DNA of 33,369 bases, from assembly GCA_024401305.1 (NCBI GenBank), contig JAKSLI010000037.1, forward strand, positions 1 through 33,369. The letters run 5' to 3'. The notes under the pieces are model-generated. The model searched no databases. It was not told where the DNA came from and saw nothing but the letters and a program-made list of their open reading frames with translations. Shown piece after piece: positions 8,904-33,163 of the stretch (position 1 is its first letter; each line of letters begins with the position of its first letter). The position numbers and the translations under genes were made by a program. This DNA comes from Bacteroidaceae bacterium (GTDB lineage: Bacteria > Bacteroidota > Bacteroidia > Bacteroidales > Bacteroidaceae).

Positions 8904-8930
8904 TCAAGGAAAATAGCATCAGAAATAAAC

Positions 8931-10398: not shown

Positions 10399-10499
10399 CA
10401 CTTTTAACGCCAACAATCCGCTAATTGCGTCTCTAAAAATCGTCACATCTCACAGAAAAATATACCACATCAATTTTGTTTTCACGATAACGCGAGAAA

Positions 10500-10531
10500 T
10501 TTGTCAATTAAACCTTTTTTGTGTAACTTTG
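10500..10531 (+). promoter_or_regulatory. Bacteroidetes-type promoter for purL
   Basis: TTTG at 10500-10503 and TAACTTTG at 10524-10531 are 20 nt apart. The leader to the purL ATG is about 90 nt. No purine riboswitch-like structure was recognised in the leader. The rest of the 10314-10622 gap holds nothing else recognisable besides the MATE promoter element. Confidence 0.75.
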
Positions 10532-10622
10532 CGCACGATTTATGTCTATATGATTGACATACAAATTCGCTATTTAACTCAGATAATAATAATTTCAAAA
10601 ACATACAGCCACATAAGTCCGT

Positions 10623-14372: not shown

Positions 14373-14375
14373 GAC

Positions 14376-14990: not shown

Positions 14991-15016
14991 CTCCCAATCC
15001 TACAAAGGTAATCATA

Positions 15017-15044
15017 CTTATTACTTAATACTTATTACTTAATA
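15017..15044. repeat. 14-bp tandem repeat (two copies) between the chrA-type genes
   Basis: CTTATTACTTAATA occurs twice in a row, followed by a partial CTTA. It lies just before the TTG start of the second chrA-type gene. It is AT-rich and may be simple slippage; similar spacers are common in this group. Confidence 0.75.
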
Positions 15045-15055
15045 CTTAGTAAACT

Positions 15056-15649: not shown

Positions 15650-15650
15650 T

Positions 15651-15705
15651 TCAAATTTCGCTTTGCTCAATTTGAGGCTAAAGGCCCCCCTCGTGCAAAG
15701 CACGA
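15651..15705 (+). other. two small hairpins before lptD
   Basis: Inverted repeats 15651-15657 with 15669-15675 and 15691-15696 with 15700-15705 (TCGTGC-AAA-GCACGA) fill the 66-nt gap between the chrA-type gene and the LptD gene. No promoter element is seen. They may weakly end or slow transcription from the left. Confidence 0.35.
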
Positions 15706-15715
15706 ACTCAAAACT

Positions 15716-18574: not shown

Positions 18575-18586
18575 GACAATAACAGC

Positions 18587-18631
18587 AACTCCCACGACTC
18601 TGAATATCAGAAATCGTGGGAGTTTATTTTT
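18587..18631 (+). terminator. strong terminator after lptD
   Basis: An 11-bp perfect stem (18587-18597 with 18614-18624), rich in G/C at its core, is followed by TTATTTTT. It begins 13 nt after the lptD stop. Confidence 0.9.
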
Positions 18632-18691
18632 CATTCAATTCCCCAAATCTTCGGCAAAGAAAAAGGCATGTGATACTAAAATCCCTAAAGA

Positions 18692-18735
18692 ATTCCGCAT
18701 AACCTTGTAGTGTTTACTGCAAAGATATGCGGAAT
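18692..18735 (-). terminator. hairpin downstream of hsdR
   Basis: A perfect 10-bp inverted repeat (18692-18701 with 18726-18735, ATTCCGCATA/TATGCGGAAT) with a 24-nt loop lies 76 nt past the hsdR stop. Read leftward it is followed by CTTTAGGG, a poor T-tract. It probably ends the defence operon, but the loop is long. Confidence 0.4.
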
Positions 18736-18810
18736 CTGTTAATAGCATTTCATTTGTCAGAGCTGATTACATTCAGTCTCAATGGTAGGTTTATCGTGGG
18801 ACGGATCAAT

Positions 18811-21800
18811 TCAAACCTTATTAACAATATTGTCGTATATTTCGTTAAACCAAATGTCTTTGAAGAGGTTGTTGACTCTGTCTTCAGTGAGTTTATTATA
18901 TAGGTCTAGCTTTGAATTGATGAAGTCAAGAAGTTCGTCATCTATGACCCCATCAAACTTATCTCGTATGTCATCACGACTGTTTTTCTTGTTGAAGAAA
19001 CCAAGCAATTCCTCATTACTCATGATACGGTCGCGCATACTTTCAAGGTCTGCCTTATCGTCATCGTCCAGATTAAGTCCGTATTGCTCGTTGAGTTGGG
19101 CGATAATCTTGCTGAGATATTCCATCTCTGGCTCTTCATGTCCACCACCTTCACCACCGTTAGGACTCTGACCTTTCATCTTCGTATCCTTACCCTTCAA
19201 TTCCAGTTTCTGTTCTTTCAGGAACTTCACACGGTAGTCTTGCAGACGAGCCTCATTAAGCACCTCGTATGGAAGTTTCTCCTTTTCGCATTCTATCTTC
19301 TTTTGAAGAGCGTATGCAAACGGATAGAGACTCATCAACTCTGTGTCAGTAAAAGATATTATCTGGCTAAGGAATCCGAAAAGTTTGTAGTATCTGCCAC
19401 ATGTCTTGCGAAGTTCCTTCTGAGTATCATTGTCAAGTTTCTCCTTAACAACATCACTTATACGATCAAGTACAACGTTCATCTGGGAACGGTACGCTGT
19501 ATCTTTGCTTGTAGAGAAGTAATACTTAGCAAACTCCTGAACGTCGGTCAGCGTGAACACATTGAATGAATATAACTTATCCTGAATATCATAAAGCGTG
19601 TCAGGATCAGTCTCGTCACTTTCATCCATCTTGTTCTTTCCATAATATTTCTGGAAGTCCTTGCGTATCTCTTCTGGATCATTGACGAAGTCAAGCACCA
19701 TCGTAGAATCCTTACCACCCGTCTTGCGGTTAAGGCGTGAAAGAGTCTGCACACTACTTGTTCCACCAAGCTTCTTGTCCACAAACATGGTGTGAAGCAG
19801 CGGTTCGTCAAAACCTGTCTGATACTTGTTGGCAACAATCAGGATTCTGTATTTAGGAAGCTTGAAAGCGTCTGGGATTGACGTACCCTTAGGAAGATTA
19901 TTCATCATTGATTCTGTATAATCCTTATCATCATCTTCCCTTACGGAACCAGAGAATGCCACCAATGCCCTATATGGCAGTCTCATTTCCTGCATTATGC
20001 TGTCAAACTTCTTCTTGTATCTTACAGCATGAAGACGGCTCCTTGTCACGAGCATAGCCCTTGCCTTACCACCAATCTCCTTCTCTGTCTGGGACACGAA
20101 GTGTTCGAGCATAATGCGTGTCTTACGCTCTATTGCCCTATCCTGTATGTCGGCATAACTGCCAAGCAGTCGCATAGCCTTCTTACGTTCATACTCCTTG
20201 TCCGGCATCTTGACATTCTGCACAAGATAATAGTAACGCTCGAATGACATATAGTGCTCCATCACGTCAAGGATAAATTCCTCCTTGATAGCCTGTTCCA
20301 TTGTGTAGGTGTCAAAAGGCTCCTTTGTGCCATACTCACGCTCGCAGAACAGTTCTATGGTTTTTCCTTTTGGAGTCGCCGTGAATGCGAAGAAAGAAAT
20401 GTTGCGCTTTCTACCGCCACGTCTCATTTCCTCTTCAATGATATCATTCAGCTTATCCTCCTCATCGTTCTCTTCTTCAATATCCTCGTCAAAGATAGAC
20501 GCTTCACGGAGAGACAGTGCCCTACGCATCTGACGTGCATTCTCTCCACTCTGGCTTGAGTGTGCCTCGTCTATGATTACAGCATACGTCCTGTCTGGGA
20601 ATCGCTTTATGGTATCGCTAATCTCCTTAAACTTTTGGATCGTAGTCACGATGACATTCTTTCCTTCCTGAATGACACGCCTCAGCGATTGGCTACTGGT
20701 CTCATCGCTTTTCAAACCCTTATCGCCAATATACACAATCTCCTGTGGCTGTCTCTCAAACTGCTTCAGGTTCGACTGCAACTGAACGTTCAATACACGT
20801 CGATCAGTTACGACGATGGTACAGTCAAACAGCGATTTCTCATCATCGTAGTTCTGATAGAAGTTGCTCAGCCTGTAAGCAAGCCATGTTATGGTGTTCG
20901 ACTTTCCCGAGCCAGCAGAATGCTGTATGAGATAGTTGTGTCCTACTCCCTGCTCTCTTACCTTATTGAGCAAAGCCTTAACTGCACGCCTCTGATGGTA
21001 GCGAGGGAAGATAAGGGCTTCCTTCGGTTCATCTTCTACGTTTCCTGTCTCCTCGTTATATTTCTTTTCGATAGTCACCTGCACACCAATGAAGCTTTCT
21101 ATAAGTTCCATCAGCGAGTCTTTCCTAAGCAAGTCTTCCCAGATATAGCCTGTTCTGTAGCCACTATCATGAGGTTTCACACCTTTGTTCTTATACTCTT
21201 TGTTGTAAGGGAAGAATCGTGTGTTCTGTCCATCCAACTTTGTTGTCATGTATGCCTCTTCCGTTCCTATGGCGAAATGCACAAGACAACGTTTGAACTC
21301 AAGGAACTTCTCACCCTTCACCTGTCTGTCCATCATGTATTGCTTGATAGCTTCATGATGTTTCTGCCCAGTGAGAGTGTTCTTTAGTTCTATCGTTATT
21401 ATAGGCAGACCGTTGAGGAATATGCAAAGGTCTATCTCGTTGTTGTTTTTACGAGAATACTGCAACTGTCGCACTATAGACAGACGGTTCTTCCTGTACA
21501 GTTCTGCGTGTTCCGGAGTCTTGTTGCTTACAGGCTTGAAGTAAGCGAGGTCAAAGTGACAACCAGACAAGTCCAACTGGTTACGAAGCAGATGGAGTGT
21601 GCCGGCAGGTGCTATTACGTCGCTGCCAGTCTTCTTCTTTGGAAGTACGCCCAAATGTTGTGTCATCACCTTATCCACTCTGTCGCAGATAGCCTTGCGT
21701 GCAACACTCTCGCTGCCCTTGCTGTTCACAAGGCGCGAATACATCTTTGGCTGACTGTCTTTCAGAAAGGCAATCAGTTCGTCGGGTATCAAACACCAGT

Positions 21801-21921
21801 CTTTGTCGTACTTTGTGTGATCCACCTGTGTGTATTCATAGTCGCTATAGCTGTCTGTGTTTGATACAAGAAAACCCACTATATATTCTTCGAAGTCCGT
21901 TTCGTTCAGGAATCCTGGCAT
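18811..21921 (-). CDS. hsdR: type I restriction enzyme, restriction subunit R
   Basis: A 1036-residue motor and nuclease subunit of a type I restriction-modification enzyme. Near the N-terminus is the PD-(D/E)XK nuclease core, D164 then E178-x-K180 in IDLCIFLNGLPIITIELK. The SF2 helicase/translocase follows: Walker A HSAGSGKS at 334-341, DEAH box at 451-454 in VIIDEAHSSQSG, then VANKYQTGFDEP and LSRLNRKTGGKDS in the second RecA-like domain. The C-terminal 300 residues should bind the MTase core. All catalytic residues are present, so the gene looks functional. It follows hsdS by 14 nt and ends the leftward operon. The order M, S, R with R last is a common layout. Confidence 0.96.
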   Translation of the reverse strand: MPGFLNETDFEEYIVGFLVSNTDSYSDYEYTQVDHTKYDKDWCLIPDELIAFLKDSQPKMYSRLVNSKGSESVARKAICDRVDKVMTQHLGVLPKKKTGSDVIAPAGTLHLLRNQLDLSGCHFDLAYFKPVSNKTPEHAELYRKNRLSIVRQLQYSRKNNNEIDLCIFLNGLPIITIELKNTLTGQKHHEAIKQYMMDRQVKGEKFLEFKRCLVHFAIGTEEAYMTTKLDGQNTRFFPYNKEYKNKGVKPHDSGYRTGYIWEDLLRKDSLMELIESFIGVQVTIEKKYNEETGNVEDEPKEALIFPRYHQRRAVKALLNKVREQGVGHNYLIQHSAGSGKSNTITWLAYRLSNFYQNYDDEKSLFDCTIVVTDRRVLNVQLQSNLKQFERQPQEIVYIGDKGLKSDETSSQSLRRVIQEGKNVIVTTIQKFKEISDTIKRFPDRTYAVIIDEAHSSQSGENARQMRRALSLREASIFDEDIEEENDEEDKLNDIIEEEMRRGGRKRNISFFAFTATPKGKTIELFCEREYGTKEPFDTYTMEQAIKEEFILDVMEHYMSFERYYYLVQNVKMPDKEYERKKAMRLLGSYADIQDRAIERKTRIMLEHFVSQTEKEIGGKARAMLVTRSRLHAVRYKKKFDSIMQEMRLPYRALVAFSGSVREDDDKDYTESMMNNLPKGTSIPDAFKLPKYRILIVANKYQTGFDEPLLHTMFVDKKLGGTSSVQTLSRLNRKTGGKDSTMVLDFVNDPEEIRKDFQKYYGKNKMDESDETDPDTLYDIQDKLYSFNVFTLTDVQEFAKYYFSTSKDTAYRSQMNVVLDRISDVVKEKLDNDTQKELRKTCGRYYKLFGFLSQIISFTDTELMSLYPFAYALQKKIECEKEKLPYEVLNEARLQDYRVKFLKEQKLELKGKDTKMKGQSPNGGEGGGHEEPEMEYLSKIIAQLNEQYGLNLDDDDKADLESMRDRIMSNEELLGFFNKKNSRDDIRDKFDGVIDDELLDFINSKLDLYNKLTEDRVNNLFKDIWFNEIYDNIVNKV

Positions 21922-21935
21922 AGCGTTACTGTTTT

Positions 21936-23285
21936 TTATTCGTTAGGAGTCCAGTCTCTTACATCCACCTGACCGGTAACGGCTTCTGTAATAAGGGACT
22001 GCTTATATGATTTCAAATCCTCTATCTGAGATTTTAGTTCGGAGATAAGAGAGTCTATCTTTGAAGTTTGTGAGTCAAGGAAAGAGGCAATCTGTTCTTG
22101 TTCGTCTATTGGGGGAACTGAAATAGTTGTATTTCCTAATTTATCCTTAGTGAAATGAGGAATTGTAGCTACATTACTTACCATTTCAATATAGCCTTTT
22201 TCAACTATAGATCTTACGAAATAACAAATGTATTTATTTTCCATTTTCTTATTTCCTCGTACAATCATAATTGAATTCTGTATCATTGTTTCAGGTGTAG
22301 GCTCTTCTATAATAGCACAGCCTCCAGCACCAGCACCACCTTCAACAATTAGCATATCACCAATTTCGACTTGATAAGAGTTTTGCTCCTTCTCCGTAAA
22401 ATACATTTCTTTAAGGTCACTTGTGTCAATACCAGAGAAATGGACATCTTTTGCACAAATGTATTTCTTAAGATGTATTGCATCAGATGTTTTTGACAAA
22501 GAGAGCATTTTCCCTAATATTATTTTTGATATTCGTCTTAAAGGCAAAGTACTCCAATGCTCTGGAATCTCCCCAATCCAATCTACTCCGCTATCTTTCA
22601 TGGGAGCATCAGGATTAAGACCTTTGGTTACAGTTTCGGATATAAGAGAAAAACGATACTTTTCCATATCACTTATCATCTTCTCCTTTTCTGTAATGAC
22701 AGCATTTATCTTTGACACCTGTGAGTCAAGATAACTGACTATTTTTGCCGCATTGTCAACAGAAGGAACTAATACAGCGACTTCTTTTAGAATAGTCTGA
22801 GTTATACTGAACACCTTTATTCCATAAACATTTGAACGAATCTGACTTCGCCATAATGCAGATTGGAATAAATAAGCCCAGTACTTTGATATAGTATTAT
22901 CGAACGGCCTTGCAACAAGAGAGTGGTAACCTGCATATATTCCTTCTCTATCTATATAGGCGCAATTACCACATCCGTCCAAATCCTCAGAAGTATCAGC
23001 AAATATAAAATCACCAGGATATACTTTGCAGTTGTCGTTATCTTTTGTTATCTTGTCAGGAACAAAACGCAACAAACAATCGTCAGTATGTACACCTGTG
23101 TTTTGCTTGCTATGTATCTGCCCATAGCTGATTACAGGATGTCCTACTTCTGTTAGATCGGCTTTTGTAATTGTAAGCCCCTTGCAAAAAGAGAAAAGCC
23201 TCTTCATCGGCATAACCTCCCAATGCTCAGGAACACTTCCCAACCACTGTACACCAGAATCCTTATATCGTTCGTATTTCTTCAT
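21936..23285 (-). CDS. hsdS: type I restriction enzyme, specificity subunit S
   Basis: A 449-residue two-TRD specificity subunit. Two half-repeats are visible: GSVPEHWEVMPMKRL (17-30) against GEIPEHWSTLPLRRI (238-252), and the spacer helices YLDSQVSKINAVI (185-197) against FLDSQTSKIDSLI near residue 405. Target-recognition domain 1 spans about 25-175 and domain 2 about 250-400. Each reads one half of a bipartite target site, which cannot be predicted here. No frameshift or truncation is seen. The start is 12 nt after hsdM. The TRD-coding parts look more AT-rich than hsdM and hsdR, as is usual for exchanged TRDs. Confidence 0.95.
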   Translation of the reverse strand: MKKYERYKDSGVQWLGSVPEHWEVMPMKRLFSFCKGLTITKADLTEVGHPVISYGQIHSKQNTGVHTDDCLLRFVPDKITKDNDNCKVYPGDFIFADTSEDLDGCGNCAYIDREGIYAGYHSLVARPFDNTISKYWAYLFQSALWRSQIRSNVYGIKVFSITQTILKEVAVLVPSVDNAAKIVSYLDSQVSKINAVITEKEKMISDMEKYRFSLISETVTKGLNPDAPMKDSGVDWIGEIPEHWSTLPLRRISKIILGKMLSLSKTSDAIHLKKYICAKDVHFSGIDTSDLKEMYFTEKEQNSYQVEIGDMLIVEGGAGAGGCAIIEEPTPETMIQNSIMIVRGNKKMENKYICYFVRSIVEKGYIEMVSNVATIPHFTKDKLGNTTISVPPIDEQEQIASFLDSQTSKIDSLISELKSQIEDLKSYKQSLITEAVTGQVDVRDWTPNE

Positions 23286-23297
23286 CTATAGTGTTTG

Positions 23298-25040
23298 TTA
23301 TGCAAAAAGAGACTTTAGCAATGATGTCACCTTCTCCTCGCTCACCTTGATTCGCTCAGCAATAGCAGCAGAAGGTTCTGGCTGCTCATACTGATAGAAG
23401 TAGCGAGTGAAGTTTATCTCGTAGTTTACGCGAGTCTTTGAGAGTTCTAGCCATGACTCTGGGTCGATGTGTGGCAGTACCTCCGTCTTGAAATACTCAT
23501 GCACGTTCTGAATGTCGAGAGGTACAGACTCCGTATCGCGCTTTGAAGTGTCTGCCACCTTCTTGCCAGCCTTCATCACTACATTACCACTCTCATCGCG
23601 AAGAGGTTGCTCTACGACAAGCTGATAGTTGCCGAAGAACTGATTAGGAAATATCTTGCAATGCTCACCTTCTTCAAACGCAAGATAAATCTTCAGCACC
23701 TCTCTTACGTCCTCCTTTGGGCGAATCTTATTGCGCTTGTTGCCAAAGCTCTTTGGCTCAGATTCGCAGAAGGATGTTGCATCAATAAGTTGCACTTTAC
23801 CTCTACGCTCCGCACTCTTGTTATTGGTGAGGAACCAAATGTATGTATTGATACCTGTGTTATAGAAGAGGTCCTTTGGCAATGCAACAATACACTCCAA
23901 CAGGTCGCTCTCTATTATCCACTTGCGGATATAGCTTTCACCACTGCCAGCACCACCGCTGAAAAGAGGAGAGCCATTGGTAACTACTGCCATGCGGCTT
24001 GTGCCGTCCTTCTTCATCTTGCTTATCATGTGCTGGATGAAGAGTAGCTGTCCATCGCTGGTGCGTGGAGTTCCAGCATAAAAGCGACCTTCAGGATCTT
24101 GACATTCCTTGAGAATGGTATCCTGATCCTTCTTCCATGTCACACCGTATGGTGGGTTCGCCATGATATAGTCAAAGTACTTTCCCTTGAACTGGTCATC
24201 GGTAAGGGTGTTGCCAAGCCTGATGTTGTCAGCATCGCCATCAGTAACGAGAGCTTCACTCTTTGCTATGGCATACGACATCTCGTTGAGTTCCTGACCG
24301 AAGGTGATGATGGTAGGCTTGATACCATCTGCACAAAGTTCCTCAAGGATATACTTACGACCGAGGTTCACCATACCACCTGTTCCGCAGGTAGGGTCGT
24401 AGATGGAGCGGATAACATTTCCTCCTGATAGAGTCTCCTTGTCTGGGGTGAAGAGAATAGCGTTTATCAGTCGGATAACATCACGAGGGGTAAAGTGCTC
24501 TCCGGCAGTCTCATTGCTGAAGTCGTTGGCTATACGCAGAATCTCCTCAAAGACATAGCCCATGTCGTGGTTGTCCATGGCAGAGAGTGAGAAGTCAAGT
24601 CCTTCAAACTCCTGCACCAAGGCGAAGAGGAGTTTGTTGCGATTGAGGCGAGCGATGACCTTGTCAAACTCAAAGTGCGTAAAGATGTCACGCACCTCCT
24701 CGTTGAAACCGTTAAGGTAGTTCGTGAAGTTGATGGTGATGTTGGCAGCATCATCCTTCAGAGTCTTGAAAGTATGGCGGGAGGTATTATAGAACTTCAA
24801 TCCGCCAGCAGCCTTGCGGAGCACAGGTTTCAGTTTGTCCTCCGTTAGCTTCTCGTGGAACTTCTCATACTGCTCACGCACCTTCTTGTTGACTGGTGCC
24901 AACATGCAGTCAAGACGTCGCAGAACGACGAAAGGCAATATCACATCACCAATCTCGTTCTTCTTGAATGTATCTCTCAGCACAGTGTCCAGAATGTTCC
25001 AGACAAAGCTGAGGTCTGGTTTCTTATTATTGTTGTCCAT
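23298..25040 (-). CDS. hsdM: type I restriction enzyme, methyltransferase subunit M
   Basis: A 580-residue N6-adenine DNA methyltransferase. An N-terminal helical domain (about 8-150) is followed by the AdoMet-binding motif I DPTCGTGG at 215-222 and the catalytic motif IV NPPY at 295-298 in MANPPYGVTW. The N-terminal 'LSFVWNILDTVLRDTFKKNE' and 'LPFVVLRRLDCM' blocks are typical HsdM_N. With HsdS it methylates the host target site; with HsdR it restricts unmodified DNA. It begins 9 nt after the stop of the 320-residue gene, so it is most probably translated from the same message as that gene and the ATPase. Confidence 0.96.
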   Translation of the reverse strand: MDNNNKKPDLSFVWNILDTVLRDTFKKNEIGDVILPFVVLRRLDCMLAPVNKKVREQYEKFHEKLTEDKLKPVLRKAAGGLKFYNTSRHTFKTLKDDAANITINFTNYLNGFNEEVRDIFTHFEFDKVIARLNRNKLLFALVQEFEGLDFSLSAMDNHDMGYVFEEILRIANDFSNETAGEHFTPRDVIRLINAILFTPDKETLSGGNVIRSIYDPTCGTGGMVNLGRKYILEELCADGIKPTIITFGQELNEMSYAIAKSEALVTDGDADNIRLGNTLTDDQFKGKYFDYIMANPPYGVTWKKDQDTILKECQDPEGRFYAGTPRTSDGQLLFIQHMISKMKKDGTSRMAVVTNGSPLFSGGAGSGESYIRKWIIESDLLECIVALPKDLFYNTGINTYIWFLTNNKSAERRGKVQLIDATSFCESEPKSFGNKRNKIRPKEDVREVLKIYLAFEEGEHCKIFPNQFFGNYQLVVEQPLRDESGNVVMKAGKKVADTSKRDTESVPLDIQNVHEYFKTEVLPHIDPESWLELSKTRVNYEINFTRYFYQYEQPEPSAAIAERIKVSEEKVTSLLKSLFA

Positions 25041-25049
25041 TTGTTTCGG

Positions 25050-26012
25050 TTAGAAGTTTAAGAGGTATGACACTTTGTCTCCCTGTACTCCAGGTATTGC
25101 TGCACTTTTCTTTTGGTCGACAAGCACTTGCAGATCAGCAAGAATATCAATACTATTCTCCAGATTATCACGATCATAATGACTTACTATTGTAAAGTCT
25201 CTTCCTTTTGTAGCATTATTGTTGCCATCAAAATAAGTGAATGAATCGCCACTTTTGAATCTTTTATAGTTTGTTATTATATACCTATCATGCTCTGCTC
25301 TTGAGATATCTACAAGCGTAACATTTGATTCTTCATTTGTTACTTCCTTTGTTACTTGTTTTATCTTTCCAATAACAGTTTTGAAAGTGGTTGCAGCCTT
25401 CCCAAAATTGTAAATAATTACAACGTTTGGAGCCTTCCCATCTGCATGTTTGCATAGATTGCGTATTATTGAATACACATTATCATCATGCGTAATCTCC
25501 GGCTGAGAAAAGATGTAGGGATCTACTATAATAATGTCCGTACATGGTGAAGCGTGTGTCTCAACCAATTGCCAATTCGTCATCTTTCTTGCATTGAATT
25601 CTTTTGTGGCCACATTCTCAACAAATAGACTCATTATAGCAGGTATTTCTTTCTTCTCTTCTGCAATCAAAAGGCAACCATGTTTTGATAACGTACTTAC
25701 ATTTTCATCTGTTAAGAAGAACAAAGCATGATAATCTTCTGCATCGATTTCATCATAAAAAGAATCTGACAGAGGTCTCTTGCCAATACTTTTGTTCCAA
25801 ACAGGTTCGTTCTTGACTCCAGAGTTCATTTGTGTAGTCCATTGCTTAATCGCCTGTAGAACTTGCTTACCTTCTTTGTTTAGAGAATCTTTATCAAATG
25901 CCAGGAAGATGTCACCATGCGTCTTCAACATATTGTTGCAAGTCTTGAAGTTCTCGTTCGAAGCTGATTTTATGTAGCTACGAAAGTTTGGTAAATCAAA
26001 ATAGACTCTCAT
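25050..26012 (-). CDS. uncharacterised 320-residue protein coupled to the ATPase gene
   Basis: I do not recognise this family. It is soluble, with no signal peptide or membrane segment. Two regions stand out: DIIIVDPYIF (D164-P165-Y166) at the end of a predicted beta-strand, and AEHDRYIITNYKRFKSGDSFTYF (H241-D242-R243 onward). The spacing and look of the second part recall the single H-D-R block of phospholipase-D-like domains such as MIT_C, so a PLD-like fold without classic HKD motifs is a possibility, not a claim. The start is 2 nt after the ATPase stop (CT between), which indicates translational coupling, and hsdM follows after 9 nt. It is probably the effector or partner of the ATPase. 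No TOPRIM, HNH or TIR motif was seen. Confidence 0.85.
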   Translation of the reverse strand: MRVYFDLPNFRSYIKSASNENFKTCNNMLKTHGDIFLAFDKDSLNKEGKQVLQAIKQWTTQMNSGVKNEPVWNKSIGKRPLSDSFYDEIDAEDYHALFFLTDENVSTLSKHGCLLIAEEKKEIPAIMSLFVENVATKEFNARKMTNWQLVETHASPCTDIIIVDPYIFSQPEITHDDNVYSIIRNLCKHADGKAPNVVIIYNFGKAATTFKTVIGKIKQVTKEVTNEESNVTLVDISRAEHDRYIITNYKRFKSGDSFTYFDGNNNATKGRDFTIVSHYDRDNLENSIDILADLQVLVDQKKSAAIPGVQGDKVSYLLNF

Positions 26013-26014
26013 AG

Positions 26015-27784
26015 TTAGAATATTTCAAATGCAAGATTAGAAGCTTCATCATAAAATCCTTCACCAAAATCATTGGAGAACTTTCCATCTGTGCGGAACT
26101 CCATCTCGTATGGATCGCCATTCTGCTGGAAATACATGATACAGAAAGGATTGTTTTTGTTCAAAATCTCCTCATTCTCATACTTTTCCTGTGCAACAAG
26201 AACCTGTATCTTGCGAACAAGATACTCGGAATGAGTCTCAACAATAAAGCGACAATGATATTTCTCACTTACTTCCTTCAGGAGGTCAGCCAACTTTGTC
26301 TGAAGATTCGGATGCAGGTTCTGCTCTGGCTCTTCAATCACAATGATTGGCTTGTAAGCCAATTCTTTTGATGTCTTATTTGTAAGGTTGAAGCGACTAA
26401 GAGTAGCTGCTATGCGGAAAAGCATGACCATAATCTGGATTGAGCCCATACCCTTATCTGCAAGATTCACATGGTCTTCATGCTCCTCTTCTTCACTGAG
26501 ATACTTCTCCTTGATATCCATAGTATATGCTTCACCTTGTATAGGAGTTATCTCGTAATCAACACCAACGCCAAGTTTCTTCATCCACTCTTGAACGAAC
26601 ATTGCCTCAAGGGAACCTTTCTTGATGTTCTCGCTATAGAAGTCATGGATAGCCTTTGCGATGTGGTCGTTCTTGTCTGTTGTAGAGTATATAACGTTCT
26701 GATTTGCAGAATGAGCAGATATATACTCTATGTTGATGCTGTTGAGCAGAGAACGAAGTTCGTCACGGAATGTCTCCAGCTGTGGAAGCTCCTGTTGCAT
26801 CATTTGGTGAGACTCAACATCAATGTACTCTTCATCGCCAGCATTGAACTTCATTGGTCTCAAAGTGTCAATAAACTGATTGATCATCTCGCAAATCAGA
26901 TAGTCGGAATTAGCGAGGGTATCATTGTCCAATACGAAACCAACTGTTGACTTTGCATATTTATGCTCATTAAGGTTCTCTGAAACAAGATTTGAAACAC
27001 TATCAACCATCAGATGACGCATGAATGCAGTTTCTTTTTTGGTAGAAGTAGATTCTGACATGTCAAATAATTCGGTATTATCCAAATCATAATAACTCAG
27101 CCAACTATCATCCTCTTCATCTTCGTCTTCTTCCGGTATATGAAGTTCTTGGAGAACAGGAATAATCTGTGCGATAATCTTGTCCAACTCCGCATAGAGG
27201 GTAGTTATTGTTGACAGATTGCCATCTTCCGAAGCTTTGTTGATTTTCTCAACAATCTCAAGGTGCTGGTAGGCTAATTCCCAAATCTTATCTTGCTTTT
27301 CCTTTGGGTCAAGCAATATTTGCGCAAGGATACTATTTTCATCTCCCCAATAAGCAAAACGAAGACCATACTTCATGTTAACAACATCAATCTTAGTGAT
27401 CGTTGCTGTAGGTTCGTTACCTTTTTCATCTCCTGTCATTGCAATCGTAAACTCATAATCGCCAATGACAAAAGCAAACTCAATTTTATTGCCTAAACTA
27501 TCAGGTTTTCCAAAAGCATACTCTGGCTTATGACAAAGAGCACGGGTGTATGTACCGATCTTCACGTCGTGATATTGGTTGGCATCAAAACGGAACTGTG
27601 GTCTCTTGATTGTGTCACCACCTCCCATTCGCATTGTGCGGATGTTGTCCACTGCGAGCAGGATTGCCTTCACGAGTGTTGATTTGCCGGAGTTGTTGCC
27701 TCCAACAAATATGTTTATGTCACCAAGACTGCGAGGTGTAACGTAATAGAAACGACGAAAATTGGTTACTGATATCTGATCCAT
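26015..27784 (-). CDS. ABC/AAA-type ATPase with DUF3696-like C-terminus
   Basis: A 589-residue SMC/ABC-like ATPase of the AAA_15/AAA_21 type. Walker A GGNNSGKST is at 28-36. The signature-like loop LADKGMGSIQ is at 441-450, Walker B IVIEEPEQNLHP at 481-492 (E484/E485), and the switch ETHSEYLVRK at 516-525. The last 30 residues (TDGKFSNDFGEGFYDE) fit the short DUF3696 tail seen on many such ATPases. A long insert between the halves (about 150-440) includes an acidic stretch at 218-236. There is no TOPRIM domain, so it is not an OLD/Gabija-type nuclease. Comparable ATPases drive partner effectors in defence systems such as Septu and PARIS. Its own -7 element lies 29 nt upstream, and its partner gene follows after 2 nt. 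Confidence 0.9.
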   Translation of the reverse strand: MDQISVTNFRRFYYVTPRSLGDINIFVGGNNSGKSTLVKAILLAVDNIRTMRMGGGDTIKRPQFRFDANQYHDVKIGTYTRALCHKPEYAFGKPDSLGNKIEFAFVIGDYEFTIAMTGDEKGNEPTATITKIDVVNMKYGLRFAYWGDENSILAQILLDPKEKQDKIWELAYQHLEIVEKINKASEDGNLSTITTLYAELDKIIAQIIPVLQELHIPEEDEDEEDDSWLSYYDLDNTELFDMSESTSTKKETAFMRHLMVDSVSNLVSENLNEHKYAKSTVGFVLDNDTLANSDYLICEMINQFIDTLRPMKFNAGDEEYIDVESHQMMQQELPQLETFRDELRSLLNSINIEYISAHSANQNVIYSTTDKNDHIAKAIHDFYSENIKKGSLEAMFVQEWMKKLGVGVDYEITPIQGEAYTMDIKEKYLSEEEEHEDHVNLADKGMGSIQIMVMLFRIAATLSRFNLTNKTSKELAYKPIIVIEEPEQNLHPNLQTKLADLLKEVSEKYHCRFIVETHSEYLVRKIQVLVAQEKYENEEILNKNNPFCIMYFQQNGDPYEMEFRTDGKFSNDFGEGFYDEASNLAFEIF

Positions 27785-27812
27785 AATGGGAGTGTTTTCT
27801 TGTTTTCGGCTG

Positions 27813-27820
27813 CAAAATTA
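27813..27820 (-). promoter_or_regulatory. -7 element of a promoter for the ATPase-hsdMSR operon
   Basis: On the minus strand this reads TAATTTTG, 29 nt before the ATPase start and in the gap after the WYL gene. No clear -33 TTTG is found at the expected distance, so it may need an activator or be a weak promoter. The WYL regulator is a natural candidate to act here. Confidence 0.5.
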
Positions 27821-27846
27821 GGGACTTACTATGCAGGTTTGCTTCA

Positions 27847-28866
27847 TTATTTGTAGATTTCTGACATTTTCTTTACTCTGTCGGCTATTTTGCTCCTTAA
27901 TTCCATAGGCTTAAGTACCTCTATGTCATTGCTGTATGAGAGAAGCGTAGCGTCAAGTTCGTTGTTCAAACATACTTTGAGACGAATGACAACATGCGTG
28001 GAAGTTTCCATTTCCTTTATCTCCGTCTGCGTCCAGTGCAAAGGTTTTGACTTGATGTATGGATAACGCAACTTGTCAACCTTCAACAAAACGGACTCTA
28101 TAGTATCATTTATGGATACTCCTATGCCATTGTCGAAATATTCATCAAAGTCAATATCCGTCTCAATGAACTTTTTATGTAACGGAGCGACGGTCTCTAT
28201 TCTGTCCAATGGGTAGTTGCCAATGTAAGGCTTTCCCTCTACCTGAGCAATGAGAAACCATCGGTTGTTGTACTGCTTCAGATGGTATGGATGGAGGTTG
28301 TATGTCTCTGTTTCACGAACTACGACCTCGCCGTCCTTCATATAAGGGAAGGGGGTATATGAAACTTTCAGCGGCTGCTTATTGGCTATGGCTTTCAGTA
28401 AGGTCTCAAAGTGCTCAATGCCGTACAAGTCGGGATTGTTTTGAAAGGATATGAGCAAACGATTGTCACCCATAAACTCATTGCTTACAATCTGCTGCAA
28501 ACAGAATCTTACCCAATCATACTGCGGTGTCCCGTCAAAACGCTCCAGAACCTTTATGGCACTATCTATCCTTAGTTTCTCATCATCAGAAAACTCAAAA
28601 AGATTAATGCCTGGGTATGTTTCCGAATACCTATAAACGGTTTTATGCCCATCCTTAATCTTATCAAATCGTGCACAATATGGCGACAGTTCCATCTCAT
28701 TCAAGTCGTTCTGCAGAGTGCGCTTTGAGATAGTCTTATAGCCTTTTTTCTCCAATCCCCTATTGCACACGTCAACCAGATCATCAATAGTATAATTACG
28801 ATGACGGTTCCTCATACATTGATCTAGGAGCATGAATCGGTATGTTTTATGATTATCTACAGGCAT
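27847..28866 (-). CDS. WYL-domain transcriptional regulator
   Basis: A 339-residue regulator. An N-terminal winged helix-turn-helix (about 1-65, with YKTISKRTLQNDLNEME as the recognition part) is followed by a helical linker and a WYL domain (about 140-225). The name-giving motif is WFL at 203-205 in NNRWFLIAQVEGKPYIGNYPLDRIETV. A C-terminal domain (about 240-339) completes the typical architecture. Proteins of this type (BrxR, CapW and others) control phage-defence operons, often as repressors that also bind their own promoter and are released by a nucleic-acid ligand. The gene is first in the leftward block and 62 nt upstream of the ATPase gene, so it most probably regulates the defence genes. 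Confidence 0.9.
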   Translation of the reverse strand: MPVDNHKTYRFMLLDQCMRNRHRNYTIDDLVDVCNRGLEKKGYKTISKRTLQNDLNEMELSPYCARFDKIKDGHKTVYRYSETYPGINLFEFSDDEKLRIDSAIKVLERFDGTPQYDWVRFCLQQIVSNEFMGDNRLLISFQNNPDLYGIEHFETLLKAIANKQPLKVSYTPFPYMKDGEVVVRETETYNLHPYHLKQYNNRWFLIAQVEGKPYIGNYPLDRIETVAPLHKKFIETDIDFDEYFDNGIGVSINDTIESVLLKVDKLRYPYIKSKPLHWTQTEIKEMETSTHVVIRLKVCLNNELDATLLSYSNDIEVLKPMELRSKIADRVKKMSEIYK

Positions 28867-28890
28867 CGATTGACGGTTAGACTATTGGAC

Positions 28891-28905
28891 ATTCTTGGAA
28901 AGAAT
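28891..28905. promoter_or_regulatory. candidate operator (inverted repeat) before the WYL gene
   Basis: ATTCTT-GGA-AAGAAT is a perfect 6-bp inverted repeat with a 3-nt centre. It lies between the WYL gene's -7 element (28922-28929) and its start (28866), where a self-repressing regulator would bind. Only one copy was found, so this is a suggestion. Confidence 0.35.
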
Positions 28906-28921
28906 TCACGTATTTCGTTTG

Positions 28922-28929
28922 CAAAGTTA
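28922..28929 (-). promoter_or_regulatory. -7 element of the WYL gene promoter
   Basis: TAACTTTG on the minus strand, 55 nt before the WYL start. The usual -33 TTTG is missing at 19-21 nt; a TTTG lies only 12 nt away, so the -33 region is degenerate. The rest of the gap to 29128 is AT-rich. Confidence 0.5.
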
Positions 28930-29054
28930 GTAATATATTTTCAAAAAACACCTACTTATTCGATAATAATAAAAAAACAAGAAAAAAGAGCATTAAAAAT
29001 AAGATTGTGTCATCAATTTTCATGCAGATTATGAATTCTAATGATCCCCACATC

Positions 29055-29082
29055 TCATCACATCTTTTGGCTTATGTGATGA
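29055..29082. terminator. hairpin after the 156-residue gene
   Basis: A perfect 9-bp inverted repeat (29055-29063 with 29074-29082, TCATCACAT/ATGTGATGA) with a 10-nt loop lies 46 nt past the stop of the leftward gene. It has no strong T-tract on the minus strand, so it may be a weak terminator or a protein-binding site. Confidence 0.4.
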
Positions 29083-29128
29083 TACTCATCATTTGCAAGG
29101 CATGTCTATCCTTTGACTCCGCAATTTG

Positions 29129-29599
29129 TTAAAATGCTCCGTTGTGATAAGCTCGTGTCTGCACGTAACTTGGTTCGTAGTAGGCGCTGGAGTTGTAATT
29201 GTCAATCGTATCACAGATAGGAGAGGCATAGACGTTTTGTATTGTGCGGACGAGGTCCTGCCCTTGCTTTGACACGGAGTCAATCAGTCGCGCATACACT
29301 TTGCCCATCTGCAGATCCGTAGGAACTTTGTCTGTGAATTCTGAGTCAATGGCAGTTACATCCGTATTTCCCTCTGCAAGGTGGTATTCCTCTTTCCAGT
29401 TGCTCACCACCTGTTCTGGGTTAAGACAATGGTTGGTCTCTGCGATGGAAAGCTGTCGGGCAAGTCCATCGCTGCCTATCTGCTTAACCACATAACGGTT
29501 ACGCTGCTTGATGCTACGTGCTACACGCTCTATCATGTAGCAAACGAAATAGAGGTCGTTGAAGGTTATCTCTTCATCTGGGAAATAGATGTTTCTCAT
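29129..29599 (-). CDS. small conserved-looking protein of unknown function
   Basis: A 156-residue protein without signal peptide or membrane helices, and with no motif of known enzymes. The N-terminal half is helical (DLYFVCYMIERVARSIKQRNRYVVKQIG), and the C-terminus ends in the distinctive ICDTIDNYNSSAYYEPSYV stretch. From memory it resembles small Bacteroidales proteins that lie next to DUF3791/DUF3990 genes, but those partners are not in this window and I cannot confirm the match. It follows the symporter by 67 nt on the same strand. A weak -7-like box (GAATTTTG on the minus strand, 29652-29659) lies upstream. The ATG at 29599 is the only good start. Confidence 0.7.
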   Translation of the reverse strand: MRNIYFPDEEITFNDLYFVCYMIERVARSIKQRNRYVVKQIGSDGLARQLSIAETNHCLNPEQVVSNWKEEYHLAEGNTDVTAIDSEFTDKVPTDLQMGKVYARLIDSVSKQGQDLVRTIQNVYASPICDTIDNYNSSAYYEPSYVQTRAYHNGAF

Positions 29600-29666
29600 T
29601 GCTCGTTTTTTCTTAAGGGAAAATATGTTGTGACAGGTGACAGATTTTCTGCAAAATTCAGATTCT

Positions 29667-30866
29667 TTAGCAATCCTTGTTGGTCATCGCGCAGACGCAA
29701 GAGTCGGACCAGACGTTTTCGGCGGTTTCTATCATGTCGATGATAGTGTAGATAGGAAGGATGATGCCCATGATGCCGATTGGGGCGCCAGTGCCAGCTG
29801 CAAGGGAGAGGGTAAGGAAATAGCAGCCCATTGGTACTCCGGCGTTGCCTACAGCGGAGAATACGGAGAGGAATACCCAAAGAAGAATGGTCTGCCAGGT
29901 CAGTTCGATGCCGCCGTTCTGCATCAGCCACAAGGATGTTACGAGGATGAAGGCGGCGCAACCGTTCATGTTTATTGTTGTGCAGATAGGTAATACGAAG
30001 CGGGAGACGCGAGGCGAAACGCCCATGCGCTGCTCTGCCGACTGCATGGTGACTGGCAATGTTGCCGCAGACGACTTTGTGAAAAGTGCCATAAGCACGG
30101 CTGGCATCATCTGCGAGAGCGTCTTCAGCGGATTGATGCCACGAGAAAGGAGGAAGAGTGGCAGGACAATGAAGAACTGCACTACATTACCGCCAATGAT
30201 TACCGCCACATATCTGCCAATGGAATCCAACGCCATGCCGCCGCTGACCTGCGCCGTGAGTTGTGCGGAGAAGGCAACGATGCCGAGAGGGAGTGTCCAG
30301 ATAAGTCCGCGAATGAGCGTGAACAGCAACTCTTGCAAGCCCTGAATGCCCTTTACGACAATAGCCTTCGGCTCCGAGTCGGGCATCTTCGTCAGCGCGA
30401 AACCAATGGCGAAGGCGAGAAGCAAGATGCTCAGAACATTGCCTTCAAGGAAAGGACGGACGATGTTGTCCGGCACAACACTGAGGAAATGCTCGCTATA
30501 AGACAGCGTACCGAGATTCTCCGGCACATCCGTAGCCCCTTTGCTGATAAGTTCCTCCGGCAGATTGCCCGGAGCTATCAAGAGATAGAGCACAACGCCA
30601 ACGATGGCTGCCGCGAATGTTGTGGAGAGAGTATAGAAGAGAGTTCTGCGAAATATCTTTCCCGTTTCCTTCTGCGCACCGAAAGAAGCCAGCGTCGTTA
30701 TCACGGCAAGTGCTATCGTAGGCACGGCAAGCAGACGGAAAAGTCGGGTATAGATGGCAGCAACGAAGTCGGCAGTAGCGTTTATCCATTGCAATCCAAG
30801 CATACCAAGGGCAGCACCAACAATGAGTGCGCCGATCCAAAGAAAGAGTTGACGTTTATTGTTCAT
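29667..30866 (-). CDS. SLC1-type dicarboxylate/amino-acid:cation symporter
   Basis: A 399-residue inner-membrane protein of the DAACS (GltP/DctA/SstT) family with about eight membrane segments and two re-entrant loops. The first hairpin tip, SSAATLPVT, is at 265-273, and the substrate/cation motif TINMNGCA at 297-304. The usual NMDGT is here NMNGC, so the Asp and Thr that help bind sodium or substrate in GltPh-type proteins are replaced. A substrate is therefore not assigned; glutamate, C4-dicarboxylates, serine/threonine and cystine are all found in the family. Its start ATG at 30866 is only 4 nt from the nearest -7 box, but a second promoter copy further upstream can serve. The protein looks intact. 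Confidence 0.9.
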   Translation of the reverse strand: MNNKRQLFLWIGALIVGAALGMLGLQWINATADFVAAIYTRLFRLLAVPTIALAVITTLASFGAQKETGKIFRRTLFYTLSTTFAAAIVGVVLYLLIAPGNLPEELISKGATDVPENLGTLSYSEHFLSVVPDNIVRPFLEGNVLSILLLAFAIGFALTKMPDSEPKAIVVKGIQGLQELLFTLIRGLIWTLPLGIVAFSAQLTAQVSGGMALDSIGRYVAVIIGGNVVQFFIVLPLFLLSRGINPLKTLSQMMPAVLMALFTKSSAATLPVTMQSAEQRMGVSPRVSRFVLPICTTINMNGCAAFILVTSLWLMQNGGIELTWQTILLWVFLSVFSAVGNAGVPMGCYFLTLSLAAGTGAPIGIMGIILPIYTIIDMIETAENVWSDSCVCAMTNKDC

Positions 30867-30870
30867 GCTG

Positions 30871-30901
30871 CAAAATTACGAATAAGCGAGTGAAATACAA
30901 A
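30871..30901 (-). promoter_or_regulatory. promoter in repeat copy 1 (symporter)
   Basis: On the minus strand TTTG (30898-30901) is followed after 19 nt by TAATTTTG (30871-30878), a near-perfect consensus. The start codon begins 4 nt after the -7 box, so this promoter would give a leaderless or start-less message. Confidence 0.6.
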
Positions 30902-30959
30902 AGGAAAGTCCGAAAACTTTCATTTTTATTTCCGAGCGAAAGTAATTTAGAACGCAGTT

Positions 30960-30990
30960 CAAAATTACGAATAAGCGAGCGAAATACAAA
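30960..30990 (-). promoter_or_regulatory. promoter in repeat copy 2 (symporter)
   Basis: TTTG (30987-30990) and TAATTTTG (30960-30967) on the minus strand, again 19 nt apart. It would give a leader of about 85 nt before the symporter start and is the more believable working promoter. The partial third copy has another TAATTTTG at 31049-31056 with ATTG in the -33 place. Confidence 0.75.
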
Positions 30991-31127
30991 AGGAAAGTCC
31001 GAAAACTTTTATTTTTATTTCCGAGCGAAAGTAATTTAGAACGCAGTTCAAAATTACGAATAAGCGAAATATTACCAATATTTGCACAGGAAAGTAAGTT
31101 TTTCTTCTTTTTTAATGCAGAAATCGT

Positions 31128-31135
31128 TAACTTTG
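31128..31135 (+). promoter_or_regulatory. -7 element of the promoter for the outer-membrane protein gene
   Basis: TAACTTTG on the plus strand, 45 nt before the ATG at 31181. The -33 region is only a T-rich run around 31101-31113. Confidence 0.55.
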
Positions 31136-31180
31136 CAGCCAAAATAATTATTGCATGCAGTGGTATTAACACCCTCTAAT

Positions 31181-33163
31181 ATGAAAAGAATACTTGCCTT
31201 ATCCTTTTCCATACTTTTATCAATAGCTGCTTTTTGCCAAAACAGCGCTGCCAATGGCAATGTCGCTGACGAGGTGGCAGTGGAAAACACCGACATGGCT
31301 CGACTGCCTTACGCCATTGATATCCTGAAACAGATACCAAGACTTCGAGTTTCAGCAAACGGCGTGGTGGTCATCGGACGCGGCACGCCTGCCATTTTCA
31401 TCGGCAACAGAAAGGTCACTGACCTTACGGAACTCTACAACATTGCTGCCAACAAGGTGAAGAGCGTGAAGGTGCTCATAAACCCGGGTGCTGAATATGG
31501 CAAGGAAGTGAATGCCGTTGTGGTAATTTACCTGAAGGAAGACGATGAATACGAAGGACTGCGCATCAACGAAATGCTACGCATAGACATGACGCACAAG
31601 GCTGCCACAAACAATGAGGTGAGCATCGGTTGGAAGAAGAAGGACTTCTTCGCTGCTGCTTTCCTTGGCTACAACGAAGAGCGACGCTCGTTCGAGAAGC
31701 AGACTTTCAAGAACTACTACATCAACCAGTTGCCAGACCATCTCGACAAGGTCACGGAGCATCCTGACATAATGAAGCAGCGATGGACAGGACGCTTGAA
31801 GACTTCATACGCCTTCAACAGCAACCACAACATATCGCTCAGCTACTCCCTCCTTGACAACCGTACAAACAGGACATTCATCCCGGAGAACGGAAAGACA
31901 ACCAGAGTTCCCGAGACTCGCCACGACATCGACTTCAACTACGAGGGAAAGTTTGGCAAGTGGAATCTCTTTGTTGGCAACGACACCTATTTCGACAACA
32001 TCAACCAGCGTGCGCATTCCGAAACGTTAGACGGCCATTACCTTCGCAAGGAATACGACATTCGTACCTACGCAAAGGCAAGCAGGGCGCTATGGAGGGG
32101 ACAAATCCTGGCAGGTGCGGAGTTCGACTACAGTCACATGGATGTCGATAAATATGACGAGGACCAAATGACGAAGGAATTCATGAAGGAGTATGGCGGC
32201 ATCCATGCCTTGCATCCGGAAGAGACATACGCAACCTTTCTCTCTACCACGCAGAAGTTCGGAAAGTGGAACATTGAGGCTGGTTTCCGTTACGAGCACA
32301 GATACTCTTCATACAAGCCTTGCGCTGACGACGGTCTGATGAGGTACATAGAGACAGGAGACGTGAGCGTTAATCCAGAAGATATGGGAAACCCTATCGT
32401 ACAACTGGCGCAGAACGGCAAGATAACGTACCACCGCGACCACCTCTACCCTACCCTGAAGGTATCGACTTCCGTCGGCAAGTCGCAGTTTGCCCTTTCA
32501 TATACCCAGAGCAGCGTGCGCCCATATCTTGGACTTACACGCATCACGGTGAAGGATATTACGAACAAGCATGTGGACGACAAGATGCTTACCACGGAAA
32601 GAGTGACAACAACCTCGCTGAACTGGAAACACAGTTGGACAAGTGTCACCGCTTCTTACCTCAAGTACGCCGACCCTATATGCCAAACATTGGACGGCTC
32701 CGTAAGCTACAACGCTCCTGACTACAGGGCGATGAACATCAACGCCACACTATCGCCAAAGTTCGGCGTCTGGAGTCCGGCACTCAACGTCAACGCCTTG
32801 AAGCAATGGTTCTACATGCCTTTGGCAAACGGAAAGAACAAGCTCCGCGACATGCTTTTCAACGCCAGCTTCAACAATACGCTCGACCTCCCAAACAACT
32901 GGCTCGTCCTCATCGGCGCACAGTGGCATAGCAAGGGTGCCGAGCGCAACTGGCATTACTACTCGCCGAACCTTTGCCTCAACGCATCCGTACAGAAGGA
33001 GTTCCCACGCCAGGGACTTACCCTGACACTCAGCGGCACAAACCTTCTCAGAGGTTCTTTCACCGACATCACTCGCTACACCCAGGCTTACAACAACATC
33101 TCCGAAGGCTTCCGCGAGCAGGAGGTCCGAATGGTGTCCATGGCAGTGAAATGGAGGTTGTAA
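31181..33163 (+). CDS. outer-membrane beta-barrel protein with TonB-type plug
   Basis: A 660-residue protein. A signal peptide (MKRILALSFSILLSIAAF) is followed by a plug-like domain at about 30-125 with LKQIPRLRVSANGVVVIGRG, AIFIGNRKV and VKVLINPGAEYGKEVNAVVVIYLK. The remainder is a beta-barrel of the OMP_b-brl_3 type found in TonB-dependent-receptor-like Bacteroidetes proteins. The usual N-terminal CarboxypepD_reg domain and a TonB box are not seen: the plug starts about 25 residues after the signal. The ligand is unknown. The ATG at 31181 is chosen because it gives a clean signal peptide; an upstream TTG at 31151 would place ten extra residues before it. It converges on the RhuM-like gene, with 3 nt between the stop codons. 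Confidence 0.85.
   Translation: MKRILALSFSILLSIAAFCQNSAANGNVADEVAVENTDMARLPYAIDILKQIPRLRVSANGVVVIGRGTPAIFIGNRKVTDLTELYNIAANKVKSVKVLINPGAEYGKEVNAVVVIYLKEDDEYEGLRINEMLRIDMTHKAATNNEVSIGWKKKDFFAAAFLGYNEERRSFEKQTFKNYYINQLPDHLDKVTEHPDIMKQRWTGRLKTSYAFNSNHNISLSYSLLDNRTNRTFIPENGKTTRVPETRHDIDFNYEGKFGKWNLFVGNDTYFDNINQRAHSETLDGHYLRKEYDIRTYAKASRALWRGQILAGAEFDYSHMDVDKYDEDQMTKEFMKEYGGIHALHPEETYATFLSTTQKFGKWNIEAGFRYEHRYSSYKPCADDGLMRYIETGDVSVNPEDMGNPIVQLAQNGKITYHRDHLYPTLKVSTSVGKSQFALSYTQSSVRPYLGLTRITVKDITNKHVDDKMLTTERVTTTSLNWKHSWTSVTASYLKYADPICQTLDGSVSYNAPDYRAMNINATLSPKFGVWSPALNVNALKQWFYMPLANGKNKLRDMLFNASFNNTLDLPNNWLVLIGAQWHSKGAERNWHYYSPNLCLNASVQKEFPRQGLTLTLSGTNLLRGSFTDITRYTQAYNNISEGFREQEVRMVSMAVKWRL

Follow-up and report, generated by a model that had tools for sequence, protein, structure and literature searches.

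The 33,369-nt stretch of Bacteroidaceae DNA considered here (contig JAKSLI010000037.1 of assembly GCA_024401305.1, positions 1 to 33,369; the window) carries on its minus strand a type I restriction-modification (RM) operon in which the hsd genes are preceded by an ATP-binding cassette (ABC) ATPase of 589 residues (26015..27784) and a partner of 320 residues, termed C320 (25050..26012). Together, the two genes may form a phage-triggered module of the Menshen NsnB-NsnC/OLD-ABC kind that serves as an auxiliary back-up arm of this RM system, a reading that is favoured tentatively and falls a little short of an even chance. Judged from the phylogenetic comparisons, the ATPase lineage goes with RM, and C320 is repeatedly exchanged between ATPase lineages.

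Pairing of the ATPase and C320

The operon reads WYL regulator, ATPase, C320, hsdM, hsdS, hsdR, with gaps of 62 nt between the regulator and the ATPase, 2 nt between the ATPase and C320, and 9 nt between C320 and hsdM. A previous sequence-only reading had placed an ATPase and its partner behind a WYL regulator and directly before hsdM with the latter two gaps, all of which is verified. It had also described the pair as embedded in a type I restriction operon. The pair does share an operon with hsdM, hsdS, and hsdR, the three genes that define a type I system, but it lies between the regulator and hsdM and not between hsd genes.

The idea of an ABC-type ATPase with a dedicated partner holds across genomes. 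In 44 of the 48 distinct places where C320 occurs, an ATPase gene immediately precedes it on the same strand (the 48 are what remains of a table of 52 rows once 4 duplicate records are removed; L051 was entered by hand from a profile match with an E value of 1.3e-6, and the single record L050/L075, which holds only a short piece, was left out). In the four other places, C320 starts at the contig edge (L049 and L068), is cut down to some 89 residues (L073), or is an open reading frame (ORF) of 159 residues that lacks an ATPase (L074). The gap within the 44 pairs ranges from -77 to 11 nt, with a median of 0.5. The pairing is not chance. One further pair, in L108 (a longer fetch of L068), stands outside the table. 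Thus, the co-occurrence check that had been proposed across genomes reveals a pair that travels together and exists both with and without hsdMSR.

Searches with the single C320 sequence detect it in 2 of 296 genomes of a phylum sample and 6 of 399 genomes of a family sample (the genome of the window counted in each), in 2 of 72,556 plasmid records, and, by tblastn, in none of 50,697 phage records; single-sequence scans of viral contigs and of genome contigs led nowhere. The profile finds 17 of 393 order-sample genomes (own genome counted), one viral-contig locus, and 24 genome-contig loci, mostly from Bacteroidota together with Clostridia, Lachnospiraceae, Gallicola, and Chlorobiota; these search sets overlap. 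The pairs of L061 (Lachnospiraceae) and L063 (Bacteroidales) are nearly identical, and thus, one of the two may be misbinned, the alternative being a recent transfer. Two pairs per locus are present in L034, L060, and L069. L034, an IMG/VR contig whose viral label is doubtful, contains a WYL gene, a pair, hsdM, hsdS, and a second pair at 5313-15003.

The ATPase

The Walker A, EEPE, and ETHS motifs, read off the translation, are all intact in the ATPase, and among 44 relatives, Walker A is kept in 43 and EEPE and ETHS in all 44. The protein matches Pfam AAA_15 (6.6e-26). Of the 112 PADLOC families that match it at E<=1, NsnB of Menshen ranks first (2.4e-32), followed by AriA of PARIS (3.9e-26). 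A profile of 22 ATPase sequences matches the solved structure of an OLD nuclease (6p74, 1.1e-12), as well as PtuA, retron ATPases, and Rad50. By motifs and homology, then, the protein belongs to the OLD-type ABC ATPases. The DUF3696 tail once proposed for it has no Pfam match at E<=1, and at the same threshold no TOPRIM domain is matched in either the ATPase or C320.

Fold and motif of C320

As a single sequence, C320 has no convincing match in Pfam, and it had been called an unassigned partner without HNH, TOPRIM, or TIR features. The latter statement stands, as none of the three is matched in Pfam or PADLOC scans, so that such an identity is rejected. The former gives way to a recognisable MIT_C fold. 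When 24 members of the C320 family are scanned singly, four of them, the C320 of this locus not included, match MIT_C (PF16565), which is phospholipase D (PLD)-like, the best at 5.1e-4. A search for the MIT_C family in bacteria finds it in 9 of 148 genomes at E<=0.001 (7 above the curated cut-off), at ten loci. In 7 of the 10, the domain is terminal, on proteins that share 31-70% identity with the product of the final L071 gene, which PADLOC identifies as BrxL (1.1e-256; L091, 1.2e-280). Against a set of seven MIT_C domains (six BrxL-type and that of L097), the C320 family profile aligns in hhalign with a probability of 94.6 and a score of 58.5 over residues 142-262 (25227..25589, minus strand); 20 column shuffles score at most 17.9. 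Shared features of the alignment are DPY, N, and HDR, plus an N where the HKD motif has its aspartate.

The motif of this C320 is HDRYIITN (residues 241-248). The corresponding pattern HxRx4N, a variant of HKD, together with an upstream DxY is kept in 42 of 44 C320 relatives, and none of the 44 shows the canonical catalytic HxKx4D; the exceptions are L037, with HxRx4D, and the second copy in L034, which is interrupted by the contig end. Residues D164, N178, H241, R243, and N248 are the same in all 24 members compared. As judged from these alignments, C320 carries a recognisable MIT_C/PLD-like fold with a conserved H-R-N pocket. The protein thus gains a fold and a connection with BrxL through the HKD-type domain. 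Other matches are taken as chance: a search of the PDB gave nothing at E<=10 with the single sequence and designed TIM barrels plus an SDR with the profile (E 0.045-1.7), and DUF3854 (0.0011) is below its own cut-off.

A very improbable reading makes C320 a PLD-like domain that has lost catalysis and only binds; it would then regulate or recruit the RM complex, an accessory DNA-binding subunit being one such role. The asparagine in place of the HKD aspartate would suit such a role, as would the eukaryotic MIT_C domains, which bind membranes or act as binding domains. However, five residues without exception in 24 members are more constraint than a surface needs, and Tdp1 works with H-K-N.

Genomic contexts of the pair

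In 12 of the 44 pairs, the next gene is hsdM: at this locus, on a Prevotella plasmid (L009) and a Hymenobacter plasmid (L010), and in L034, L036, L047, L048, L054, L059, L060, L062, and L067, with an hsdM of the M-S fusion type in L054, L059, and L060. Eight pairs have a helicase gene next or next but one: PIF1 in L015, L040, L060 (second pair), and L063; a UvrD-type helicase in L057 and L064 (the same record as L013); a TOTE-type helicase in L065 (the same record as L012); and a superfamily 2 (SF2) helicase in L046. In L072, an HsdR-like gene, broken by the contig end, starts 53 nt downstream of the pair. In L071 (Mangrovibacterium lignilyticum, 1074-20525), the pair lies inside a bacteriophage exclusion (BREX) operon ordered brxA, brxB, brxC, a gene of 531 residues, ATPase, C320, an Eco57I-type methylase in the pglX position, a helicase-like gene, pglZ, and brxL. 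The 531-residue protein has a weak match to prokaryotic Argonaute (6.8e-11). Thus, a DNA-processing gene is next or next but one in 22 of 44 pairs (12 hsdM, 8 helicase, 1 HsdR-like, and 1 pglX-position methylase), and a single ATPase-partner family is common to RM, BREX, and helicase-bearing loci.

Five of the other 22 pairs end at the contig (the second pair of L034, L041, L042, L053, and L061). The downstream genes of ten more (L037-L039, L043-L045, L051, L055, L056, and L070) lay outside the family-library scans; downstream of L055 and L056, tblastn with the proteins of this locus gave no hit. The two pairs of L069 follow one another, and the gene behind the second has weak matches of the RmuC/Zorya type. 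No DNA-processing gene adjoins the pair in L014, L016, L052, L058, and L066.

The RM system is also found alone. HsdM relatives (E<=1e-150) occur in 6 of 295 order-sample genomes, own genome counted, and 2 of the other 5 carry the pair; the remaining 3, at 47-48% identity, have no pair directly upstream within what their short contigs allow. Among plasmids, 112 records have an HsdM at E<=1e-100, and among the best 40 of the 112, the two most similar (67% and 53%) carry the pair; three loci inspected at 43-45% identity do not. In L073 (Thermophagus xiamenensis, 9986-10258), the last ~89 residues of C320 remain directly before hsdM, and hsdMSR is retained. The pair-less loci and this remnant together indicate that the RM system does not need the pair.

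Other arrangements recur. A PD-(D/E)XK nuclease gene of the DUF1016/YhcG type lies between WYL and the ATPase in L054, L059, L060, L015, and L040. In the Marinilabiliaceae RM locus L108 (3234-19818), one C320 precedes hsdM, and its ATPase would fall past the contig end; the second pair lies between hsdS and hsdR, with three genes ahead of it: a GmrSD_N gene, one that matches Orf5/HEC-06/SspE models, and a PDC-S11 gene. Between hsdS and hsdR, L067 has an RmuC-family gene (14186-15832) and L047 a Schlafen AlbA_2 gene (4646-6019). On an Allochromatium plasmid (L090, 1520-6675), PIN/VapC-type genes are interspersed among hsdM, hsdS, and hsdR.

ATPase lineages and the exchange of C320

The careful ATPase tree (44 rows) contains a clade of 16 (support 100/99) that includes all 12 hsdM-followed ATPases and a second clade of 11 (100/99) that includes 7 of the 8 helicase-followed ones. 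The label "hsdM next," set before the trees were built, needs 4 changes on this tree versus a mean of 10.6 after shuffling, and 0 of 500 shuffles are as low. The RM clade keeps to RM across HsdM types, both the HsdM of ~580-607 residues and the M-S fusion of 742-749. A WYL gene lies on the same strand within 5 genes upstream in 14/16 and 10/11 members of the two clades (24/27) versus 1/17 elsewhere.

These results bear on the idea that the pair is independent cargo, a complete defence unit of its own that came to lie in a defence hot spot and has only transcription in common with RM. This idea is unlikely. The related proposal of the sequence-only reading, an independent module that takes no more than its regulation from the RM operon, also loses ground, since the lineage of the ATPase goes with the RM partner. 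The four changes of the label, fewer than in any of the 500 shuffles, and the one clade that stays with RM through different HsdM types speak against cargo, although co-inheritance without contact could produce the same pattern. In its favour, hsdM is not next in 32 of 44 pairs (5 of them without a downstream gene before the contig end), and RM loci host other inserts, VapC and AbiEii among the loci here and DarTG2 in print (PMC12255303, in the part available). The guanine-plus-cytosine (GC) content is likewise on its side, being 0.38-0.40 across the pair (windows 25001-29000) versus 0.47-0.50 in the flanks (14001-18000 and 29001-33000); it is similarly low in hsdS (0.40). The low GC of the pair and of hsdS fits acquired DNA.

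The C320 tree does not follow the ATPase tree. On the C320 data, trees that keep the 16 members of the first ATPase clade as one group are rejected with the careful model (p 5.9e-42) and the quick model (p 1.8e-5), as are trees that do so for the clade of 11 (p 5.4e-7 and 1.9e-55, respectively). With the RM rows as a single clade (12 vs 31, L055 left out), the ATPase data do not reject the grouping (p 0.15), and the C320 data do (p 2e-5). The operon in the window is a mosaic in this sense. Its ATPase falls among the RM types, with a join to L052/L053 rejected (p 1.1e-4, quick model), while C320 falls beside L052, L053, and L055, with a join to L009 rejected (p 0.0015 in the same model). Given the long branches of L047, L048, and L051, the trees need care.

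In otherwise conserved operons, C320 appears to diverge as much as HsdS, as seen in three chosen pairs of loci. Between L034 and L036, identity is 68% for WYL, 72% for the ATPase, 33% for C320, 85% for HsdM, and 38% for HsdS; between L047 and L067, it is 81% for HsdM, 47% for the ATPase, and 20% for C320. L036 and L068 (partial) share 66% in C320 and 35% in HsdS, and thus, C320 does not simply follow HsdS. Highly divergent around a fixed pocket, C320 looks like a recognition component, or like something that phage counter-measures target.

This pattern is what lends weight to a somewhat unlikely alternative, in which C320 would be an infection sensor, the ATPase a transducer, and the downstream machine (RM, BREX, or helicase) the licensed or redirected output, the pair alone not killing the cell. 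The recognition-like divergence of C320 between L034 and L036, level with that of HsdS while HsdM is conserved, the retention of one fold despite exchange, the separation of hsdM-followed from helicase-followed ATPases, and the DNA-processing gene next or next but one in half of the tree pairs would all follow from it, and it accounts for the exchange equally well or better than a back-up effector does. Yet RM needs no sensor because it reads methylation, and it persists in L073 beside a mere remnant of C320. Furthermore, the half of the pairs counted outside that association consists of 5 at a contig end, 10 outside the scans, and a rest with no DNA-processing gene adjoining, and the conserved pocket of C320 is left unexplained. 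A further reading is rather unlikely: a fast-exchanged, PLD-like C320 sensor cassette would sit on a system-matched ABC ATPase adaptor that serves several unrelated outputs, type I RM, BREX, and SF1/SF2 helicases. If it were true, RM and BREX systems would have, besides HsdS, a second element of recognition that can be swapped.

Proposed mechanism

Three points put the back-up effector first: OLD-ABC systems offer precedents, C320 has a PLD-like pocket, and the pair stands ahead of hsdM or, in L071, ahead of the BREX methylase. The back-up role suggested by the sequence-only reading may hold, as it agrees with the data and has published parallels in EcoprrI/PrrC and in PARIS-type modules of BREX. 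The WYL protein would repress the operon until infection. The ATPase would be the fixed hub, matched to the RM machinery, that holds C320, and C320 would be the phage-facing, diversifying part. An infection that is sensed, or a block of restriction, might set off an ATP-driven change in the ATPase that activates the PLD-like domain of C320, which would then act on nucleic acid and halt the infection, as released PrrC or AriB does.

Several observations weigh against this proposal. The replacement of the HKD aspartate by asparagine in 42 of 44 relatives leaves catalysis unproven, and the eukaryotic MIT_C precedent is one of binding. Exchange of the partner with an unchanged fold would fit a sensor as well as an effector, and co-inheritance of the ATPase with RM does not prove contact. 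The ATPase clades are imperfect: in the clade of 16, the contig of L055 ends 990 nt downstream, and L014, L056, and L058 lack hsdM as the next gene; the clade of 11 also holds L053 and L061 (contig ends), L052 (no helicase found), and L066 (a UvrD-like gene upstream on the opposite strand), and the helicase-followed L046 falls outside it. This 11-row set was first named on the quick ATPase tree, and therefore its later status as a clade is no independent test; the groups tested on the C320 data were likewise chosen in part after the ATPase tree had been seen. Joining the C320 proteins of L034 and L036 is not rejected (p 0.09). The distances of C320 and the ATPase correlate (0.46, p 0.0005, 44 pairs), and thus, the exchange of C320 is not free; those of the ATPase and HsdM correlate weakly over all 12 loci (0.14, p 0.18), and the value rises to 0.47 (p 0.005) when just the 9 loci with an unfused HsdM are taken. 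A truncated ORF downstream of a pair-less hsdM in L087 matches the ATPase profile (1.3e-9). Finally, the match of C320 to NsnC is weak (0.0024 for this protein; 1 of 24 family members at E<=1).

An ATPase that follows the machine and a C320 that is exchanged offer a direct test of which component faces the phage and which the host machine, a question relevant to many OLD-ABC systems.

The operon and its surroundings

The first gene of the operon, at 27847..28866, encodes a WYL-domain regulator of 339 residues (Pfam WYL 9.7e-9, WCX 6.1e-8). Downstream of the pair lie hsdM, the N6-adenine methyltransferase (23298..25040; N6_Mtase 7.2e-58, HsdM_N 9.8e-21), hsdS, the specificity subunit (21936..23285; Methylase_S 4.8e-24), and hsdR, the restriction/translocase subunit (18811..21921; SWI2_SNF2 2.7e-23, HSDR_N 1.5e-14), all on the minus strand. 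The gap between the WYL gene and the ATPase gene (27785-27846) contains TAATTTTG, which resembles the -7 promoter motif of Bacteroidota; a separate promoter for the pair may lie there. Upstream of the WYL gene, a perfect 9-nt inverted repeat with a 10-nt spacer (29055-29082) is a possible operator. Eight proteins were scanned outside the operon: LptD, FGAR-AT, a chromate transporter, an SDF symporter, an outer-membrane barrel, MatE, a cNMP-binding protein, and the product of a 156-residue ORF upstream of the operon, the last without a Pfam match.

Comparison with known systems

Menshen is the nearest named system, and the likeness is partial. Its NsnB is the best PADLOC match of the ATPase here and of the second ATPase of L108 (9e-37), where the pair lies between hsdS and hsdR near a GmrSD_N gene, GmrSD_N being the domain formerly named DUF262. 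In contrast, NsnC is hardly matched (a search for it gave 0 of 10 relatives and weak matches in 3 of 247 phylum genomes), and none of the six proteins of the operon (18811-28866) has a DUF262/GmrSD_N match in Pfam, which rules out a full Menshen system at this locus. According to the accessible part of PMC10952713, Menshen includes a DUF262 component and an OLD-family TOPRIM nuclease component; the latter, too, is without a Pfam counterpart in the ATPase or C320 at E<=1. MADS (MAD1-MAD8) was also considered and set aside: the NCBIfam matches are all below cut-off (MAD2, 47.8 bits against 720; MAD3, 31.9 against 420; MAD5, 27.3 against 400), and hsdR is present.

The PARIS-like layout that had been noted is upheld, since both systems join an OLD-ABC ATPase to a small partner; however, AriB is a TOPRIM protein, whereas C320 is PLD-like and has no TOPRIM or AriB match. 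Septu differs in that C320 has no HNH or PtuB match. Gabija, with its OLD-ABC ATPase, effector, and UvrD helicase, resembles the helicase-followed pairs, but the GajA models match only the ATPase part of the protein here, which lacks a TOPRIM domain, there is no UvrD among the six operon proteins, and RM takes the place of the helicase.

A PLD-like domain like that of C320 forms the C-terminal MIT_C/HKD part of BrxL. The portion of PMC12839542 consulted describes this domain as an HKD-endoDNase with a K-to-R change and the motif H-R-D, likely active by the authors' inference; there, it is fused to the BREX AAA+ protein, whereas C320 is a separate protein with H-R-N. For the BrxL domain, the same portion cites Li et al. 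2025 on Menshen polymorphism, a work that may already describe the C320 family. PMC12839542 also presents OLD-ABC proteins with TOPRIM, HNH, restriction endonuclease, or PIN partners as back-up effector modules in BREX, the PARIS type of ATPase with a small partner among them. In the available part of PMC12255303, DarTG2 is described in RM of enteropathogenic Escherichia coli, as are an AAA-like ATPase and a putative RNA-binding protein between hsdS and hsdR. Modules embedded in type I RM and BREX operons are thus already established; an MIT_C/PLD-like partner for OLD-ABC is not named in the parts of these accounts that were available, nor is the ATPase-C320 pair in the open-licence literature, judged by titles and abstract openings.

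Among type I systems, two arrangements come close to that of the window. In the Campylobacter hsd locus, rloA and rloB (R-linked ORFs) encode an ATPase and a partner beside hsdR, RloB being TOPRIM-like. PrrC of EcoprrI, an anticodon nuclease, has an ABC ATPase part and an effector fold that differs from that of C320, and it is a single protein where there are two here, placed before hsdM. The arrangement proposed here would nonetheless share with EcoprrI a latent effector within a type I RM operon, PrrC being kept latent within that system and freed on infection (PMC3874165, in the part available).

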